A stretch of 14,633 bases of DNA, from contig DAOVJH010000006.1 of the NCBI GenBank assembly GCA_030673345.1, positions 1-14,633 on the forward strand, read 5' to 3'. Made by a program: the position numbers and the translations under genes. Source of the DNA: Pseudomonadota bacterium (GTDB lineage Bacteria > Pseudomonadota > Gammaproteobacteria > SZUA-229). Positions 4,424-12,500 of the stretch are shown here, piece after piece. Each line of letters starts with the position of its first letter. The first letter of the stretch is position 1. The notes beneath the pieces are model-generated. The model saw only the letters and a list, made by a program, of their open reading frames with translations. It did not search any database and was not told the DNA's origin.

Positions 4424-4735
4424 ATGCGAAGTTTAATTCGACAATCTGATACTGGATTATGGCCCATTTCGACTGGGCCAATTGTCGTTTTTGCGCATGG
4501 AAAAAATGCAATAAAAAAGATAACAAAATTAGCGGCAGGTTACGGAACTGCACATAGCAGGGACGGGCCTATTATCTTCCACATGCGTGACGGGCCGCCA
4601 AATGTTACCGGCCCGCCAGGTGGAACTGGACCGCCACGCCACTTATGTTTTTTGGCAAGTGGTTTAAGTCCACCGAAATCAACAGGCCCGCCGATGGAAT
4701 GGCTGGTCAGAAAAAAATCTCTGAAGAAATCTTGA
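4424..4735 (+). CDS. Doubtful small ORF with Gly-Pro-Pro repeats
   Basis: This open frame of 103 codons contains (T/D)-G-P-(P/I) six times, at Gly18, 48, 57, 63, 69 and 88. Three of these are in strict 6-residue steps (DGPPNV, TGPPGG, TGPPRH). In favour of coding, the repeats share one frame and differ mostly at third codon positions: Thr as ACC, ACT or ACA, and Gly as GGG, GGC or GGA. Against it, the ATG has no ribosome-binding site, there is no signal peptide although all neighbours are exported, and codons 5-23 run through a terminator-like hairpin. The composition (His, Cys, Arg, Lys-rich tail) is also unlike its neighbours. A true ORF may start later, or the stretch may be a GC-rich structured RNA. 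I do not recognise a family. Confidence 0.3.
   Translation: MRSLIRQSDTGLWPISTGPIVVFAHGKNAIKKITKLAAGYGTAHSRDGPIIFHMRDGPPNVTGPPGGTGPPRHLCFLASGLSPPKSTGPPMEWLVRKKSLKKS
4439..4492 (+). terminator. Terminator-like hairpin after the small DUF11-like gene
   Basis: The inner stem TGGCCCA (4460-4466) / TGGGCCA (4474-4480) has a 7-base loop. Directly outside it, CGACAAT (4439-4445) pairs perfectly with ATTGTCG (4481-4487), leaving a 14-base bulge on the left side. Five T residues follow (4488-4492). It probably ends or attenuates the paralogue A operon. Confidence 0.7.
4589..4642 (+). repeat. Three 18-bp tandem units with a GC-rich hairpin
   Basis: Three consecutive 18-base units share the core GGNCCGCCA. 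A further related copy (GGCCCGCC) lies near 4685. Within the units, CGGGCCG (4591-4597) and CGGCCCG (4609-4615) form a perfect 7-bp inverted repeat. A second one, CCACTT (4639-4644) / AAGTGG (4657-4662), follows at once. The stretch is much more GC-rich than the DNA on either side. Confidence 0.55.
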
Positions 4736-4823
4736 AAAATTAACGAAAGAATCTTCAGAAAAAATAAAGGAAAAACTTAAACATTAAAAAATCTAATAGA
4801 GATTTATTTAAGAGGAAAATAGT
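4736..4823 (+). promoter_or_regulatory. AT-rich leader and ribosome-binding site of paralogue B
   Basis: A strong AGAGGA Shine-Dalgarno site (4811-4816) lies 7 bases before ATG 4824. Just ahead of it AAATCT (4789-4794) and AGATTT (4800-4805) can form a small 6-bp hairpin. No convincing -35/-10 pair was found, so whether transcription reads through from upstream is unclear. Confidence 0.55.
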
Positions 4824-6224
4824 ATGAAAACAAGTAAACGAAACAAGCTATTAAGCTTGGCACTGACAGGCGGTTTAGGCCTGTTCAGTGCATCAAATGC
4901 ATTTGCTGCGGCAAATGATGACATTTCAAACACGGCGACACTCAGTTATGAAGTGGGCACTGTTTTGCAAACTGTGATTGAATCAGCTGGCGGTGTAGGT
5001 AACGCAACACCGGGTGTGGGTGCTGGTACGCCTACGCTGTTTAAAGAGGACCGTGTGGTTAACTTTACCGTGGTACGGGAAGCAGGTGCCTCTAGACCGG
5101 TAGCGCCGGGTTCGACTGATGTAACCGCTAATGCGGTTCCGTTCCTTATCCAGAACCTGGGTAATGCACCGCTGGGATTCCTGTTGAAGGGTGTACATAA
5201 CCTGGCTGGAACCGATCCGTATACGGCAGGTACGGATATATTTACACCGATAAACATCAGAACGTATGTCGACATAAATGATGACGGCATCTATACACTG
5301 GCTGGTGATGGTGCTGTCGAGTTTGTCGGTTCTTTATCTGCGACACCTGGGGTAAATTTCGTGCGTGTATTCGTCATCTCAGATATACCGACCTTACGCA
5401 CAGCCGGTACCGGTATCCAGGACAATGATCTGGCTGTGGTGTCACTGGTGGCTCAGGTGTCTGTCGATGGTACGACCGGTATTGCAGCTGATGCGATCGT
5501 TTCTGATGACAATGGTAATACCAGCCCGGGTGGTACTTTTAGTGTGGCAGGTTTAGTAGGCCCCGGTGCAGTGGTCGATATCATTGATGATCCGGCAACG
5601 ATGCAGACGGTATTTAACGACCCTGCAGGCACCGAAGATGGTGCTGGTACTGCGCCAGGTGTGATACAGAACGGCCAGCATGCTGATGCCAGTTCGTACA
5701 TCATCCAGACAGCGGCATTAACGGTGGCCAAGTCATCTGAGGTTATCTATGACCCGCTGAACCTTGATAGCTTTACTGCAGGTAATTTCCCGAAAGCGAT
5801 ACCAACGGCTTACATCCAGTATACGATCACTGTGACAAACGATCCGGCTGCAGGTGCATCGGCTGACCTGACCACACTGGTTGATGCTATCGCGGTTACT
5901 GGTACAGCAGCGGTTGCCCTCGATGTGAATCTGCTCGATTCAGGAAAAGCATTGGGTGCAACACTCAACTTCCCAGGTGATGAAGAAGGTGGTCTGGTTA
6001 CTGCTGTTCGTGTTGACACGTTAGGTACGGCTCGTCCTTCACAAGGTTTGTCTTACTGTCTGAGTGCAGTAGCTGATGGCTGCACTTATTCAGGCGGTTT
6101 GAACGGTTCGGTCAGTGTCGACTTTTCAGCGGTTGCCGGTATGGCTGTTGAAGCAGGTTACACTGCTGGTGAGTTGAAACCTGGCGAAAGTGTTGAGATC
6201 GTTTTCAACGTGATCGTACAGTAA
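4824..6224 (+). CDS. Exported DUF11-like surface protein, paralogue B
   Basis: This is a 466-residue exported protein with a clean Sec signal: MKTSKRNK, a hydrophobic stretch and cleavage after AFA at residue 28. The mature part repeats the plan of paralogue A: ISNTATLSYEVG at 34-45, FKEDRVVNF at 73-81, SDDNGNTSPGGTF at 227-239, MQTVFNDPAG at 260-269 and IQNGQHADASSY at 281-292. A DUF11-like domain (about 297-466) holds AYIQYTITVTNDPAAGASAD and closes with ELKPGESVEIVFNVIVQ. Unlike paralogue A it has DINDDG at 150-155, a calcium-loop-like motif, and two cysteines (412 and 420) that could form a disulfide. A good ribosome-binding site precedes it. It is followed 22 bp later by the open frame of the giant protein, with an RNA hairpin array between. 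No sorting or anchoring motif is visible. The molecular function is unknown; a structural role outside the cell is inferred from the domains. Confidence 0.9.
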   Translation: MKTSKRNKLLSLALTGGLGLFSASNAFAAANDDISNTATLSYEVGTVLQTVIESAGGVGNATPGVGAGTPTLFKEDRVVNFTVVREAGASRPVAPGSTDVTANAVPFLIQNLGNAPLGFLLKGVHNLAGTDPYTAGTDIFTPINIRTYVDINDDGIYTLAGDGAVEFVGSLSATPGVNFVRVFVISDIPTLRTAGTGIQDNDLAVVSLVAQVSVDGTTGIAADAIVSDDNGNTSPGGTFSVAGLVGPGAVVDIIDDPATMQTVFNDPAGTEDGAGTAPGVIQNGQHADASSYIIQTAALTVAKSSEVIYDPLNLDSFTAGNFPKAIPTAYIQYTITVTNDPAAGASADLTTLVDAIAVTGTAAVALDVNLLDSGKALGATLNFPGDEEGGLVTAVRVDTLGTARPSQGLSYCLSAVADGCTYSGGLNGSVSVDFSAVAGMAVEAGYTAGELKPGESVEIVFNVIVQ

Positions 6225-6245
6225 TCACGGAAGATTCGCAGAGCC

Positions 6246-9200
6246 ATGTTGCAACGATTGTTACACACAGTACGTACCTGTTTTGGTCTAATGACCAGAG
6301 CAGGTTCTGCTGTGTGTGCAATTATTGTCAGGGCTTTTGTGACAATGTTTCAAAGAAATGAGATGCACTGTATGATCACACATACAGTGCATCTTCCACA
6401 GGCTATTCGACGTGATGGTTTTTCGAATGGTCTGTGGAAGGTGTATCTAACATTTTTATTTATCGTATTATTATCTGCATCCTTTGTTGCTGAAGCGGTA
6501 ACACCGCCTGGCACGCTGATCGACAATACTGCCTCTGCCGCATTTGATTTCACTGGTGCGGGCAGCACTGCAAACAGTAATACCGTGTCGATAGTATCCA
6601 GCATCATACAGACACCGTCATCGATCACGATGTATCAGTATGATGCAACAGGAACCAGTCCGTTCACGCCAACGGTTGTTACACAGCATGCGACCAGTGG
6701 TCCGCCTGGAGCCGGTTTTGTTGCTTCGGCCGATCCACTGATCCCTCTCGTTGGCGGTGGTTTGACCGTATTAGTCGCAACTGACCCACAACCGTTGAAT
6801 GTCGTTAACCTTTATGCGACAGGTGAACCAGTATTCACTCAGGTCGACGATCAGGATCAGAACCTGGACCCTGCTATACGTGAGACGGTACGTGTGGTGG
6901 TAACCAGTTCGACGGGTGATCAGGAAGAACTGATATTGATAGAGACCGGTGTTGATAGCGGTATCTTCGTCGGTTATGTGCAGTCAACATCAAACACCGT
7001 TGCGCAATATGACGGTCTGTTAAGTCTGGGTGCTGAAACCGATGTTACGGTTCAGTACACTGACCAGTATGACCCGACTGATATTAGCACCGGTGGTTCA
7101 TTGGTCGATCCTTACGGTGTCGTGTTCAGCAGCCTGGATGGCACGTTGCTCGATGGTGCTACTGTCAGCATCCTTGATACCAGTGGTAACCTGGCGGCAG
7201 TTTTTGGTGATGATGGTGTCAGTACTTATGCTAATCCGGTAACCACTGGCGGCAGTGTTACTGATGGTGGCGGCACTGTCTATAATTTCCCAGCCGGTGG
7301 ATATCGGTTCCCACGCATGAATACTGGCAGTTACCGTATCGTGGTTGATCCGCCAGCAAGTTACCAGGGCCCTTCAACAGCTAACATCAGTGATCTTCAG
7401 GCATTGCCCGGTGCGCCGTATGCACTCAATGCGGATGCCTCGTTTGCCGGCGTATTCGTGCTACAGCCGGGACCGCCGTTGCATGTCGATGTTCCGCTTG
7501 ATGCATTAACCTCATACCTGGTGATCGAAAAGTCTGCATCAAAAGAAACAGCTGCCATCGGTGACTTTGTTCAATACACCTTGCGCTTGAGTAATACAGA
7601 TACGGCTACCAGTGCGAACAACGTCGTCATAACAGATACCTTGCCGGTTGGTCTGCGATACCAGAAAGCGTCTGTCAGGTATGACGGAATAGCGGGGCTT
7701 GAACCGCAGATAACTAACGATGGCCGTACGCTTGGTTTCCCCGTCTCTGCAATACTGCCGGGAACATCTGTTCAGGTTCAATATGTTACAGAGATTTCAG
7801 TCGGCACAAAATTGGGTAAAGCGGTAAACAGTGTTGTTGCACAGGATGATCGAGGAACTCAATCTAATATCGCTGTAGCTGGCATCACAGTGACGGAAGA
7901 TCTTTTTGCCAGCAGAAGTTTTATCGCAGGCCGTGTGATCATCGGTGAATGTGACGAGGATAGTACATTGATCAACCCGGGTCTGCCTTCTGTGCGTGTA
8001 TTTATGGAAGATGGTAAATATGCAGCAACGGATGAGCACGGCCGTTTCCACTTCGAAGGTATCAAACCGGGTACACATGTCGTACAGGTCGATAAGGAAA
8101 GTATCCCGGATAACCTGGAAATCGTCGACTGCGTTAAAAACACACGTTTTTCTGGTACGCCATACTCACAGTTTGTCGATATTCAGGGCGGCACTTTATG
8201 GCGTACAGATTTCTATGTGCGTGAGAAAAAACCGATCACGGATACGGCAACTTTATTTATCCAGACCGAGTTAAATGAAGAAGATATCAAATACACCATC
8301 GAGATGTCGAATGGTGATATCCCCGTAAGAAACTATCGTCTCATTGTTAACATGCCAGAAGGCATCGACTATGACCTGGGCAGCAGCACGCTCGATGGTG
8401 CTTTTATAGAAGATCCATATGTTAATGAGAATGTCGTTATCTATCGTTTCGGTGATTTAGGCAGTAACTGGTCAAAACAGCTTAAGATCCGTGGTCGCAT
8501 CAAGGACAGGGCCGATGGTGAACTGGTGACTTCTGCATTTATTATTATGGATACTGGTATCAAGAAAAATATTCGTTCTGTACCTGTCAAAAATAAACTT
8601 GATGTCTCGGATGTGAGTGTTGAAAGCAGATCTGTTGTTTCACAGTCTGTACCTGTGCCGATCAAAAATAAAACTGAAGTGCCACGTGTAGCTCCTGTGA
8701 TTAATCCCGTTGGAGAACAGATTGATGATAACTCGTCTTTATCTGTTCACACTGAATTAAGTGAAGAGGATATCAAATACCGGATAACAATGGTTAACAC
8801 TGAAATTCCTGTAAAGAATTATCGTTTGATTATTAACCTGCCAGAAGGTGTTGCTTATGATGCAGGTAGCAGTGTTCTTTCTGGTCAGAAGATAGAAGAC
8901 CCATATGTGATTAAAAATGTTGTGGTTTATCGTTTTGGTGATGTCGGCAGTGACTGGTCAAAAGAGCTTACGTTCCGTGGCTGGATCAAAAAACATACAG
9001 ATGATGACTTTATTACGACAGCATTTGTGCTTATGGATACGGATGATAAAAAGAACATTCGTTCCACACCGATCAAAAATATACTTGAGGTTTCTGGTGC
9101 CAGCTCAGAGAGTAAGTCTGTTAAAGGCCAGACCATCTTTGAGCGAATGAAAGGAGGTGCAGGTGCATCGGCTCTTCTTGCCACAAATAACACTGCGCAG

Positions 9201-12200
9201 GCTGCAGCATTAAATAGTCGTGTTGAACTGGTGGCGAATACTAGCGAAGTGAGCGGGCCAGGAAAGGTCGAACTTGTCACTTCTGAAAGTGAGGTAAGTA
9301 AAGTTGTTCTTGAGGGCCAGCCTGAATTCAAGACCGAAAAACTGATCGAAGCGCCACCCGTGACAGAGCAGTTGGACATAAGTACGTTTGACGAATTCTG
9401 GATCAAAGAAACCACGCCCGGTTATGAGTGGTTGATGCCGGATGTGAATTATTCTCCGTTTGCGCCATCTGTAAATGTCGCTATCAAACACAAACCGTCT
9501 GACCGTTTTGAGATGCTGTTAAATGGCGAACCGATAAATCCATTGTTCTATTTTGGAATGATAAGGAATAAATCTAATACTATTGCGCGCAGTTACTGGC
9601 AGGGTGTGCATCTGGTTAATGGTGCTAACCGATTTGATTTCATCGTTAAAAATAAAGATGGAGAAGTAATAAAAACGATGACCAGGGATATCGTATTTGC
9701 CGGCATACCTGTAAGGGCTGAGTTTGATGTTGAACACTCACGCCTGATCGCTGATGGCCGCAACGCACCTGTCGTTGCTATCCGTGTCTATGACAAAGAT
9801 GGTAACTTTGCTCGTCCTGGATCACGCGGAAAATTTACTTTATCAGAACCGTATATGTCTCAGCAACTGGTCGAGGCACTGCAGGTGAATCGTCTATCTG
9901 GTTTAAATCAGCAAAATCCAGAATATGTCGTTGGACAAAACGGTATCGCATTTATCGTATTAGAGCCGACAACGATCACCGGTAAACTTGAGATCGAGAT
10001 GCCTTTCTCAGGCCGTAAACGCTCGCGCATAGAAACCTGGGTGCAGCCTGAAGTACGTGACTGGATTATGGTCGGTCTGGCCGAAGGTGCGGCGGGTTAT
10101 AATTCTGTGTCAGGCAATAAAGAGGCGCTCGATGCCAGTGACATAAGCGATGAGTTCTACGGTGACGGCAAGGTCGCTTTCTACGCGAAAGGTAAAGTGA
10201 AAGGCGAATGGTTGCTGACCGCATCTTACGATACATCTAAAGAGTCGTTGGCTGGTGATAACCGGGTCAACCAGTTGATTGACCCGAACACTTATTACAC
10301 GATATATGGGGATAATTCACGCCAGCGTTATGATGCATCAAGTGCAGAAAAGCTGTATATAAAGATCGAACGTGAGCAGTTCTATGCATTGTTCGGTGAT
10401 ATGAGCACCGGCCTGAACATAACAGAGTTATCGAAATTTGAACGCAACATGACCGGTGCTAAATCTGAATATGATGATGGTCAATTCTCGTACACCGCAT
10501 TCGCTGCTGAAAATATAAATAACTTCATCAAAGATGAGATACAGGGTGAAGGTATTTCCGGGTTGTATCATCTAAGCGGCAAAGATATCGTCATCAACAG
10601 TGACAATATCGTCATCGAAACGCGTGACCGCTTCCGTAGTGAGATTATCGTTAAAACAGAAGTCCTGCGCCGTTATCTCGACTACAGCATCGATTACACG
10701 GATGGCACTATCTTCTTCCGCCGCCCGATCCAAAGCCGTGATGAAAACTTCAATCCGGTATTCATCGTGGCTGATTATGAAGTCGAAGCACCGGTTACAG
10801 GCGATATAACAGCTGGTGGACGTGCAGCTGTACGATTTAACGAGGGTCAGATAGAGATTGGTGGTAGCGTCGTACACGATGCAACTTACCAGAATGAAGG
10901 TGACCTGATAGGTGCAGATGCTCGCATCGAAATCGATACTGCGACAGAGGTAAGGCTGGAGATAGCAACATCTGATGTTACATCCGGCACACAGGATCTT
11001 AGTGGTTCTGCATACAGTGCAGAGATCGTCCATGGTGGGGATGACCTTAAAGCAAGATTTTATGCGAAACAGGAAGATGCAGATTTCGGTTTAGGCCAGC
11101 AATCGAAAGGCCAGTCTGGCACACGAAAGTATGGTGCCGATGCCGACTATCATATCAATCAGGCGTTAGTGCTGGATGGTACTGTGTACCATGAAGACAA
11201 TCTTGTGAGCGGTGGTAAGAGAGATGTTGCCGAAGCGAACGTTACTTATAGTAAACGCAATTATTCGTTGAGTGCCGGAGCATTACTCGCCAGGGATCAG
11301 TTTGTGACGGGTGATAAAAATGCATCTAACCTGTTGACCTTCGGTGCCAGTAAAAACTTCCTTCAGGATACGGTTAAGTTAAGAGGTAATGCTGAGATAG
11401 CTGTTGATTCGGCTGATAATGTCGATCATCCTTCAAGGTTCATCCTTGGTGCTGATTATTTCATCACGCCGAAAGTAAATCTGTATGCTGAAAATGAATG
11501 GACGGTAGGCAATGTACAGGATACGCAGATGACACGTGCAGGTGTACGTGCATCGCCATGGACTAACGCACAGGTGAACTCAGCAGTAAACCAGGAAACT
11601 AATGAGAATGGTATCCGTTCATTTGCTACCTTAGGCCTGACTCAGGCATTCCCGATCAATAAGCGCTGGAGTGGCGACGTAACACTCGATCATGCAAAAA
11701 CATTACGCTCACCTGGTGCGGTGCCGTTTTATGGTGATGTTCCAGTAGCGCAAGGTACTGCTGACAACGATTTCACCGCAATATCTGTCGGTACGACTTA
11801 TAACGCAGAAACATACACGCTGAACAACCGGGTTGAATTACGCACAGCGGAGCTGGAAGACAAGCTGGGTGTAATCGTTAACTGGGAAAGAAATCTGAAA
11901 GGCGGCGTTGGTTATTCAGCAACGACGAAATTATTTAAAACTGATCGTACAGACAACAGTGCGCTGCTCGATGGCGACATCAGGTTCTCAGTTGCTTACC
12001 GACCACTACAATCACGATGGATCACTTTGAACCGTCTCGACTTTAAGTTTGATTCGAATACCGATATCCTCGGCATTAAAACTCGTCAGAGAAAACTGAT
12101 TGAAAACCTGACCTCAAACTTCCTGATCAATAATAGAAACCAGGTATCGTTTAACTTTGGTCTAAAATATGTTGTGGATACTTTTGATAAAGATGAGTAT

Positions 12201-12500
12201 AGCGGTATCACTAATTTATTAGGCAGTGAATACCGTCATGATATCAGCGACAATTTTGATATCGGAGCACATGTGCATACCCATTATTCAGCTAACTCTT
12301 CAACCATGAAGTATTCAACCGGCCTGTCATTCGGCTGGAATATGGCCAGAAATATCTGGTTAAGTGTTGGCTATAACGTCGAAGGCTTCGAAGACAGTGA
12401 TTTCTCAGCAGCAGGTTATACTGCTGCCGGTCCATACATCCGCTTCCGCATGAAGTTTGATCAGGATACTGCTGATGCGGTGCAGGACCTGTTCGAATAA
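6246..12500 (+). CDS. Giant multidomain outer-membrane protein (DUF11, carboxypeptidase-regulatory-like, beta-barrel)
   Basis: The open frame is 2,084 codons; residue numbers count from 6246. The signal peptide core is at 66-84 with cleavage after AEA. Met43 (6372) is a more credible start because residues 1-42 are Cys/His-rich and overlie RNA hairpins, though neither start has a good ribosome-binding site. Order: a short segment like the mature start of the paralogues (85-120); a DDQDQNLDP...ETGVDSGIFVGYV domain (about 195-275); a DUF11 domain (about 424-548); a carboxypeptidase-regulatory/Cna-B-like domain with DEHGRFHFEGIKPGTHVVQV (about 555-660); two tandem copies of a 129-residue unit (669-797 and 831-959); a low-complexity linker (960-1045); Ig-like segments with LIADGRNAPVVAIRVYDKDG (about 1060-1265); a conserved module with ETRDRFRSEI and DYSIDYTDGTIFFRRPIQSR (about 1350-1515); then alternating beta-strands to the end, closing with YIRFRMKF, a barrel-terminal signature, and a 13-residue tail. 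Probably a surface-exposed anchor, adhesin or exporter; function unproven. Confidence 0.88.
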   Translation: MLQRLLHTVRTCFGLMTRAGSAVCAIIVRAFVTMFQRNEMHCMITHTVHLPQAIRRDGFSNGLWKVYLTFLFIVLLSASFVAEAVTPPGTLIDNTASAAFDFTGAGSTANSNTVSIVSSIIQTPSSITMYQYDATGTSPFTPTVVTQHATSGPPGAGFVASADPLIPLVGGGLTVLVATDPQPLNVVNLYATGEPVFTQVDDQDQNLDPAIRETVRVVVTSSTGDQEELILIETGVDSGIFVGYVQSTSNTVAQYDGLLSLGAETDVTVQYTDQYDPTDISTGGSLVDPYGVVFSSLDGTLLDGATVSILDTSGNLAAVFGDDGVSTYANPVTTGGSVTDGGGTVYNFPAGGYRFPRMNTGSYRIVVDPPASYQGPSTANISDLQALPGAPYALNADASFAGVFVLQPGPPLHVDVPLDALTSYLVIEKSASKETAAIGDFVQYTLRLSNTDTATSANNVVITDTLPVGLRYQKASVRYDGIAGLEPQITNDGRTLGFPVSAILPGTSVQVQYVTEISVGTKLGKAVNSVVAQDDRGTQSNIAVAGITVTEDLFASRSFIAGRVIIGECDEDSTLINPGLPSVRVFMEDGKYAATDEHGRFHFEGIKPGTHVVQVDKESIPDNLEIVDCVKNTRFSGTPYSQFVDIQGGTLWRTDFYVREKKPITDTATLFIQTELNEEDIKYTIEMSNGDIPVRNYRLIVNMPEGIDYDLGSSTLDGAFIEDPYVNENVVIYRFGDLGSNWSKQLKIRGRIKDRADGELVTSAFIIMDTGIKKNIRSVPVKNKLDVSDVSVESRSVVSQSVPVPIKNKTEVPRVAPVINPVGEQIDDNSSLSVHTELSEEDIKYRITMVNTEIPVKNYRLIINLPEGVAYDAGSSVLSGQKIEDPYVIKNVVVYRFGDVGSDWSKELTFRGWIKKHTDDDFITTAFVLMDTDDKKNIRSTPIKNILEVSGASSESKSVKGQTIFERMKGGAGASALLATNNTAQAAALNSRVELVANTSEVSGPGKVELVTSESEVSKVVLEGQPEFKTEKLIEAPPVTEQLDISTFDEFWIKETTPGYEWLMPDVNYSPFAPSVNVAIKHKPSDRFEMLLNGEPINPLFYFGMIRNKSNTIARSYWQGVHLVNGANRFDFIVKNKDGEVIKTMTRDIVFAGIPVRAEFDVEHSRLIADGRNAPVVAIRVYDKDGNFARPGSRGKFTLSEPYMSQQLVEALQVNRLSGLNQQNPEYVVGQNGIAFIVLEPTTITGKLEIEMPFSGRKRSRIETWVQPEVRDWIMVGLAEGAAGYNSVSGNKEALDASDISDEFYGDGKVAFYAKGKVKGEWLLTASYDTSKESLAGDNRVNQLIDPNTYYTIYGDNSRQRYDASSAEKLYIKIEREQFYALFGDMSTGLNITELSKFERNMTGAKSEYDDGQFSYTAFAAENINNFIKDEIQGEGISGLYHLSGKDIVINSDNIVIETRDRFRSEIIVKTEVLRRYLDYSIDYTDGTIFFRRPIQSRDENFNPVFIVADYEVEAPVTGDITAGGRAAVRFNEGQIEIGGSVVHDATYQNEGDLIGADARIEIDTATEVRLEIATSDVTSGTQDLSGSAYSAEIVHGGDDLKARFYAKQEDADFGLGQQSKGQSGTRKYGADADYHINQALVLDGTVYHEDNLVSGGKRDVAEANVTYSKRNYSLSAGALLARDQFVTGDKNASNLLTFGASKNFLQDTVKLRGNAEIAVDSADNVDHPSRFILGADYFITPKVNLYAENEWTVGNVQDTQMTRAGVRASPWTNAQVNSAVNQETNENGIRSFATLGLTQAFPINKRWSGDVTLDHAKTLRSPGAVPFYGDVPVAQGTADNDFTAISVGTTYNAETYTLNNRVELRTAELEDKLGVIVNWERNLKGGVGYSATTKLFKTDRTDNSALLDGDIRFSVAYRPLQSRWITLNRLDFKFDSNTDILGIKTRQRKLIENLTSNFLINNRNQVSFNFGLKYVVDTFDKDEYSGITNLLGSEYRHDISDNFDIGAHVHTHYSANSSTMKYSTGLSFGWNMARNIWLSVGYNVEGFEDSDFSAAGYTAAGPYIRFRMKFDQDTADAVQDLFE
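6263..6317 (+). promoter_or_regulatory. RNA hairpin 1 of the giant-gene leader
   Basis: The outer stem is ACACACAG (6263-6270) / CTGTGTGT (6310-6317), 8 bp. A 5x4 internal loop follows, then the inner 13-bp stem ACCTGTTTTGGTC (6276-6288) / GACCAGAGCAGGT (6293-6305) with a TAAT loop. Two inner positions are G-U wobbles, which points to RNA and not DNA as the selected molecule. No T-tract follows. Confidence 0.65.
6324..6346 (+). promoter_or_regulatory. RNA hairpin 2 of the giant-gene leader
   Basis: ATTGTCA (6324-6330) and TGACAAT (6340-6346) form a perfect 7-bp stem with a 9-base loop. It contains the same TGTCA/TGACA dyad seen at 2369-2403, so a protein-binding site is an alternative reading. 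Confidence 0.5.
6361..6394 (+). promoter_or_regulatory. RNA hairpin 3, perfect 14-bp stem around an in-frame ATG
   Basis: AGATGCACTGTATG (6361-6374) is exactly complementary to CATACAGTGCATCT (6381-6394), with a 6-base loop ATCACA. A perfect 14-bp arm pair is far beyond chance in this neighbourhood. The in-frame ATG at 6372-6374 lies at the top of the left arm, next to the loop. Confidence 0.8.
6393..6440 (+). promoter_or_regulatory. RNA hairpin 4, 18-bp stem with two G-U pairs
   Basis: CTTCCACAGGCTATTCGA (6393-6410) pairs with TCGAATGGTCTGTGGAAG (6423-6440) over all 18 positions, 16 Watson-Crick and 2 G-U, with a 12-base loop. It shares two bases with hairpin 3, so the two are nearly coaxial or compete at the junction. 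It ends just before the signal-peptide codons. Confidence 0.75.
8250..9122 (+). repeat. Internal tandem duplication, two 129-codon units
   Basis: Bases 8250-8636 (residues 669-797) and 8736-9122 (residues 831-959) encode units that align without gaps. Shared blocks include EEDIKY, NYRLI.N.PEG, IEDPYV, YRFGD.GS.WSK, and KKNIRS followed by P.KN. The DNA copies have diverged at many silent and replacement sites, so the duplication is not recent. A 33-residue spacer with extra PIKNK-type sequence separates them. Confidence 0.9.

Follow-up and report, generated by a model that had tools for sequence, protein, structure and literature searches.

Comparison between relatives shows that three long hairpins (H1, H3 and H4) form a conserved mRNA structure at the 5' end of a giant open reading frame and are selected as plus-strand RNA. 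Covariation, a comparison with synonymous recodings, and an asymmetry between G-U and A-C pairs agree that RNA folding is under selection, as a first-pass annotation of this DNA had suspected. Rfam 15 at curated score gave 0 matches in the window (the whole 14,633-nucleotide stretch that was analysed) and in 20 far loci, in line with the annotation, whose author knew of no named RNA family with this layout. Relaxing the threshold to E 1 gave just five rows, all from microRNA models (E 0.36-0.94, far under the cut-off), and no paper on the element was found in the open-licence literature searched.

Structured RNAs are often sought between genes, and a long, covarying, translated one can escape such scans. 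The candidate RNAs of one comparative search (Weinberg et al. 2010, PMC2864571) resemble the element in having covarying structure linked to one gene family. That pipeline took regions between annotated genes, so an element within an ORF could be passed over, and OmpA, outer membrane and DUF11 do not occur in the main text of PMC2864571. The element provides a testable case of simultaneous selection on RNA shape and protein, and a candidate means by which bacteria could keep a small exported protein in proportion to an outer-membrane partner of 2000 residues. Such double use of a stretch, in which matched mutations in close relatives preserve the hairpins while the same bases encode protein, is rare, and here it may tune the ratio of giant to small protein.

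Position and folding of the leader

The upstream partner gene, paralogue B (4824..6224, plus strand), encodes a 466-aa protein and was defined from the ORF list and phmmer searches of upstream ORFs. A small ORF with many GPP/RDGP codons (GGNCCGCC repeats) lies 5' of it at 4424-4735, and in L047, L048, L049 and L051 the upstream ORF has a similar RDGP/RDAP stretch at its start. The giant ORF (6246..12500, plus strand) encodes 2084 aa with DUF11 and carboxypeptidase-regulatory-like domains, and several homologues of its product are named OmpA family protein. Among 120 listed homologues, most have the OmpA domain PF00691, which was not found in the giant protein at E 0.001. Residues about 663-718 and 825-880 of the giant protein are one segment present twice (61% alike). 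Between the B stop and the giant start codon is a CACGGAAG block (6226..6233, plus strand), possibly a weak ribosome-binding site, which is unchanged in 10 of 17 flanks and altered in L036, L043, L046, L047, L048, L049 and L050.

The hairpins had been described as lying between paralogue B and the giant gene. They are instead inside the giant open frame, whose first ATG is at 6246, and occupy its first 66 codons, 5' of the signal peptide. A start codon downstream of H4 was not preferred, because relatives have M, V, L, T or A at that residue. Readthrough of the B stop was likewise rejected: although the two ORFs are in one frame in the window and in several relatives, their frames differ in L003, L012, L013, L015 and L026.

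Folding, covariation, the frame test and a match to the R1 covariance model define the structured leader at 6246..6443 on the plus strand. H1 (6259..6320; 8+13 bp) has a 13-bp inner stem, 6276-6288/6293-6305, and a middle stem, 6259-6270/6310-6320. H2 (6324..6346) has 7 bp. H3 (6361..6394) is a perfect 14-bp stem, 6361-6374/6381-6394, made of a core (6366-6374/6381-6389) and an outer part in which 6361-6365 pairs with 6390-6394 in competition with H4. H4 (6390..6443) has arms at 6390-6410/6423-6443, including 18 consensus pairs (6390-6407/6426-6443), and is in contact with H3 without a spacer. Its 3' arm codes for SNGLWKV, immediately 5' of the signal peptide's hydrophobic segment (Y67-A84, 6444..6497), as judged by eye from the translation. 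All four hairpins of the first-pass annotation could be recognized in the window, and, as it had stated, every non-Watson-Crick pair in the inner stem of H1 and in the stem of H4 is a G-U wobble. Conservation of the four as a unit was not supported: relatives keep H1, H3 and H4, and H2 is missing from the consensus of 17 leaders. The conserved object is thus three hairpins, of which H3 and H4 abut.

Positions 6263-6440 fold at -91.2 kcal/mol. The 200 dinucleotide shuffles gave -46.4 (sd 4.4), and not one was as low (z -10.25); the shuffled controls proposed with the annotation therefore reveal excess folding. The 180-nt steps starting at 6181, 6241, 6301 and 6361 (z -5.96 to -8.38) are the lowest four of the 241 steps in the window, for which the mean z is -0.70 (sd 1.43). 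Elsewhere in the window, strong folding steps occur at 6661-6840 in the giant gene (z -5.45), at 4681-4980 around the paralogue B start (z -4.6, -5.0 and -3.4) and at 1861-2100 at the end of an amidase gene (z -5.1 and -3.3), with a hairpin and T-run near 2018-2045 that is terminator-like by eye.

Covariation, coding and strand

Alignment A5 consists of 17 leaders, from the window and 16 relatives. L045 (genus g9, weak folding), the g13-type loci L057, L072, L073 and L078, and the fragment L044, which is without a leader, are excluded, and A5 counts thus describe structure-bearing leaders. L039, misaligned in H4, was kept in the covariation count over 51 pairs and dropped from H4 in the count of G-U and A-C pairs. 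Another alignment, A6, contained opposite-strand matches and was unused.

Both-side changes that keep pairing were found in 39 of the 51 named pairs, a number reached by 0 of 500 shuffles. Compensatory changes among homologues, the evidence that the first-pass annotation had asked of a structured RNA, are therefore present. Across these pairs, 92.2% of cells are paired, against 34-45% when the partner is slid. RNAalifold recovered the H1 inner stem, H3 and H4 from A5 unaided, with a compensated double change in 30 of 40 pairs. Pairing is high in the H1 inner stem (96.4% of cells) and weakest in the H1 middle stem (76.5%), and the 16 invariant columns of the 17 leaders are in stems, in the base of extended H3 or in the start codon. 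In the two Acidiferrobacteraceae loci, all 49 consensus pairs are intact, with one doubly compensated pair in each of H1, H3 and H4. The four g13-type loci, aligned apart, have double changes in 7 of 60 pairs and a broken member in 10. The leader frame was open in all 15 relatives that were folded, with long hairpins there in most; the weakest-folding was L011 of genus g9 (z -2.4).

The leader also folds better than its encoded protein demands. Synonymous recodings were compared at 68 of 81 loci (80 loci and the window), those dropped having short leaders, ambiguous bases or a short gene body. Relative to recodings of the same protein, near leaders had a mean z of -5.66 (15 loci; gene-body controls -0.56) and far leaders -2.65 (53 loci; controls -0.68), with z < -2 in 14/15 near and 34/53 far leaders, compared with 1/15 and 7/53 of the respective controls.

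As far as sequence can tell, the leader is translated in the frame of the giant protein, to which it adds some 60-75 residues ahead of the signal peptide. A fixed 120-nt stretch was compared at 69 of the 81 loci (12 named loci were excluded as fragments, for N runs or for a different N-terminus): the giant frame has a stop at 9 loci, and the two alternative frames at 54 and 50. This test was preferred over the distance from the start codon to H4, which is a multiple of three in every A5 leader but L049 (16 of 17), because the ends for that distance were placed by hand. In L055 and L069, strong hairpins are, by eye, 5' of the giant ORF and not within it, so the structure may exist untranslated.

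Across 849 paired-column cells, G-U occurs 119 times and A-C 14 times, against 156 and 58 in column shuffles; no probability is attached to these counts because related sequences are not independent. The retention of G-U and avoidance of A-C point to the plus-strand mRNA as the selected molecule.

Candidate functions

We hypothesize, with a probability of about 0.4, that the element is a cis-acting operon-junction RNA that protects the upstream message and throttles the giant gene. On a message running from B into the giant gene, the hairpins would form when few ribosomes occupy the leader. Once formed, they would stop 3' to 5' decay from entering the upstream small gene and would slow or cut the giant message, the latter by an RNase III-like cleavage of the near-continuous H3/H4 double strand. 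The outcome would be an excess of the small exported protein over its giant partner in the outer membrane. With the leader apparently translated, ribosomes starting the giant gene would open the hairpins, and the stability of the giant gene would be tied to its own translation.

Codon usage is compatible with such a role. Ribosomal-protein-like codon bias is higher in the upstream gene (1.48 times random) than in the giant body (1.35 times) at each of the 16 near loci, a small difference for which the window genome's ribosomal genes were the reference at all 16 loci; in the window the values are 1.47 for B, 1.37 for the giant gene and 1.35 for A. Together with the conserved junction, this bias favours an expression-balancing role. 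The first-pass annotation had located here a switch from small abundant proteins to one giant protein, and this idea fits the conserved gene pair and the slightly higher upstream bias.

One likeness is to the multiple hairpins of the Rhodobacter capsulatus puf operon, which are thought to make parts of the message unequally stable and which separate a small gene from the gene downstream of it. As at puf- or REP-type junctions, strong hairpins are present at an operon junction, co-transcription being assumed from gene order. Stabilising hairpin arrays typically sit in untranslated gaps; in contrast, the distribution of stops places the present element, a candidate stabiliser, within the downstream ORF, where ribosomes must cross it and where it covaries among relatives. 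A mobile or REP palindrome was rejected, as the element occurs at one place in its own genome (85.6% complete) and at one or two leaders per family genome. In RNase III-cleaved leaders such as that of the rnc operon, too, the message has long double-stranded stems close to its 5' end. Those stems lie in untranslated leaders, whereas here the frame test indicates translation and cleavage is a proposal. Autoregulation of the rnc operon by RNase III cleavage is described in PMC7509114.

An effect on export timing is an unlikely alternative to the operon-junction role, but one with several features in its favour. Ribosomes slowed by the hairpins, together with the long N-terminal extension, would delay the emergence of the signal peptide and thereby promote proper targeting of the outer-membrane protein, in the manner of the extended signal peptides of autotransporters, large surface proteins with a long N-terminal extension ahead of the signal peptide. 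The element stops immediately before the hydrophobic segment, and the leader passes for translated in the frame test. Its protein is moderately conserved in close relatives, an H3-encoded motif (EMNC, ETGC and similar) being found within the first 75 residues in 56 of the best 77 homologues, whose starts are gene predictions, and an open extension precedes the signal peptide in most distant homologues too. However, pausing for targeting is usually placed 35-40 codons after the signal peptide, and these hairpins are 5' of it. The Pfam extended-signal-peptide model had no match in the whole protein or in three leaders, distant leaders have little protein sequence in common by eye, and the RNA shape outlasts the peptide motif across genera.

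It is doubtful that the element is a regulated leader, in which a protein, a small RNA or a condition would flip the shared strand (6390..6394, plus strand) between its pairings and so toggle translation of the giant gene. In close relatives this strand can pair in H3 or in H4, and both options are mostly kept, extended H3 being paired in 94.1% of A5 cells. At one column triple (122/161/212) all three strands differ between clades, T-A-T having become C-G-C, with G-U retained in L050, and many of the 17 leaders have a partly paired start-codon region. Against this, the triple represents one clade split, and of the five covariation measures for extended H3 two are within shuffles (both-side changes 7 against 5.5, 83/500; pair types 190/500). 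Its pair 123-160 does not hold in 7 of the 17 leaders, and in L100, L106 and L111 H3 and H4 only abut. The shared strand may be a switch, or the two hairpins may only stack. The first-pass annotation had also suggested an attenuator or a sensing leader. No terminator or attenuator hairpin with a U-tract was found on the plus strand at 6263-6443, which removes an attenuator of the terminator type, and loops and joining strands vary among the 17 A5 leaders, unlike ligand-binding cores, with no riboswitch-like unpaired core among them.

A DNA-level feature (a cruciform or a recombination site) or a transcript of the other strand is very improbable. The long inverted repeats would suit it, as would a minus-strand ORF (6350-6628), a terminator-like minus-strand site (6394-6361) and 13 weak opposite-strand R1 rows at the same places as the sense matches, but it is the plus strand that keeps G-U and avoids A-C, and the element has a single place in its own genome, with sense R1 matches at giant-gene leaders only. 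That the structure is a by-product of protein coding or base composition is scarcely credible, although the region is coding and its protein partly conserved, since nearly all near leaders outfold their synonymous recodings, and pairing is held while leader proteins differ at many positions.

Occurrence in relatives and in other phyla

A search with part of the giant protein found matches in 24 of 58 relatives' genomes at E<=0.001, some of them other DUF11 proteins, and the giant gene was present at E<=1e-60 in 19 of 54 family genomes. The R1 model matched 17 of these 54, namely 16 of the 19 and G017, and all 18 sense-strand matches were giant-gene leaders, including one on a separate contig (G013:C221). 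Genera g9 (G025) and g13 gave no R1 match, though g13 leaders fold strongly. Over 369 class genomes, R1 found the own genome and one weak match (G130, L146, E 4.9e-4), which is not a giant-gene leader and was taken as chance; the filters in the scans of family and class genomes were stricter, and weak members can thus be missed.

The 80 loci used for wider comparison are the best 80 of 195 in a scan of named genomes and come from Gammaproteobacteria, Acidiferrobacteraceae, Comamonadaceae, Gallionella, Methylotenera, Steroidobacter, Povalibacter, Geobacter, Geomonas, Desulfuromonas, Nitrospirota and others. In other lineages, phmmer identified small genes related to paralogue B, for DUF11-like proteins, directly 5' of the giant gene. 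Among 72 loci surveyed, 69 have an upstream ORF over 100 aa; 38 of the 69 matched B, 37 matched A and 43 matched either, the window included. Many of the unmatched ORFs have similar ends by eye, and in L065, L113 and L114, outside the 69, the partner appears once a longer N-terminus is allowed for. Judged by these matches, the pair of genes for a small exported protein and a giant protein recurs in other proteobacteria, in Geobacter/Geomonas and in Nitrospirota, usually with excess folding.

The mean folding z was -4.42 for 58 of the 64 far leaders (L052-L115), 49 of them below -2, compared with -0.55 for 59 controls inside the gene (5 below -2). Leader length and folding were not correlated (rho -0.20, p 0.15). 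Abutting hairpins were modestly more common in far leaders (29/52) than in control segments (34/104), and far more so in near leaders (14/15 against 4/30). At E up to 1, R1 reached five of 52 far loci at the same place (L100, L102, L056 and L111, with L073 marginal at E 0.017). The pair is present without clear folding in L062, L098, L107 and L094, and also in L045 of g9 (z -1.3 against recodings), so the pair can work without the element. This counts against the proposed operon-junction role, as do the genera that R1 misses, the absent length correlation and the modest enrichment of abutting hairpins in far leaders. What the phyla have in common is thus a place and an excess of folding, which does not amount to a demonstrated single RNA family.

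We tentatively raise, as a less than likely generalization, a widespread class of coding-region hairpin arrays that would occupy the first 60-80 codons, as translated sequence, of genes for giant OmpA/DUF11 outer-membrane proteins in several phyla, after the same kind of small gene, with the H3/H4 strand as a translation-sensitive valve that would set the protein ratio. Leaders of the Desulfuromonadales/Geobacter type (L096, L092, L054, L058 and L063) form a large compound or multi-branched hairpin and not three in a row.
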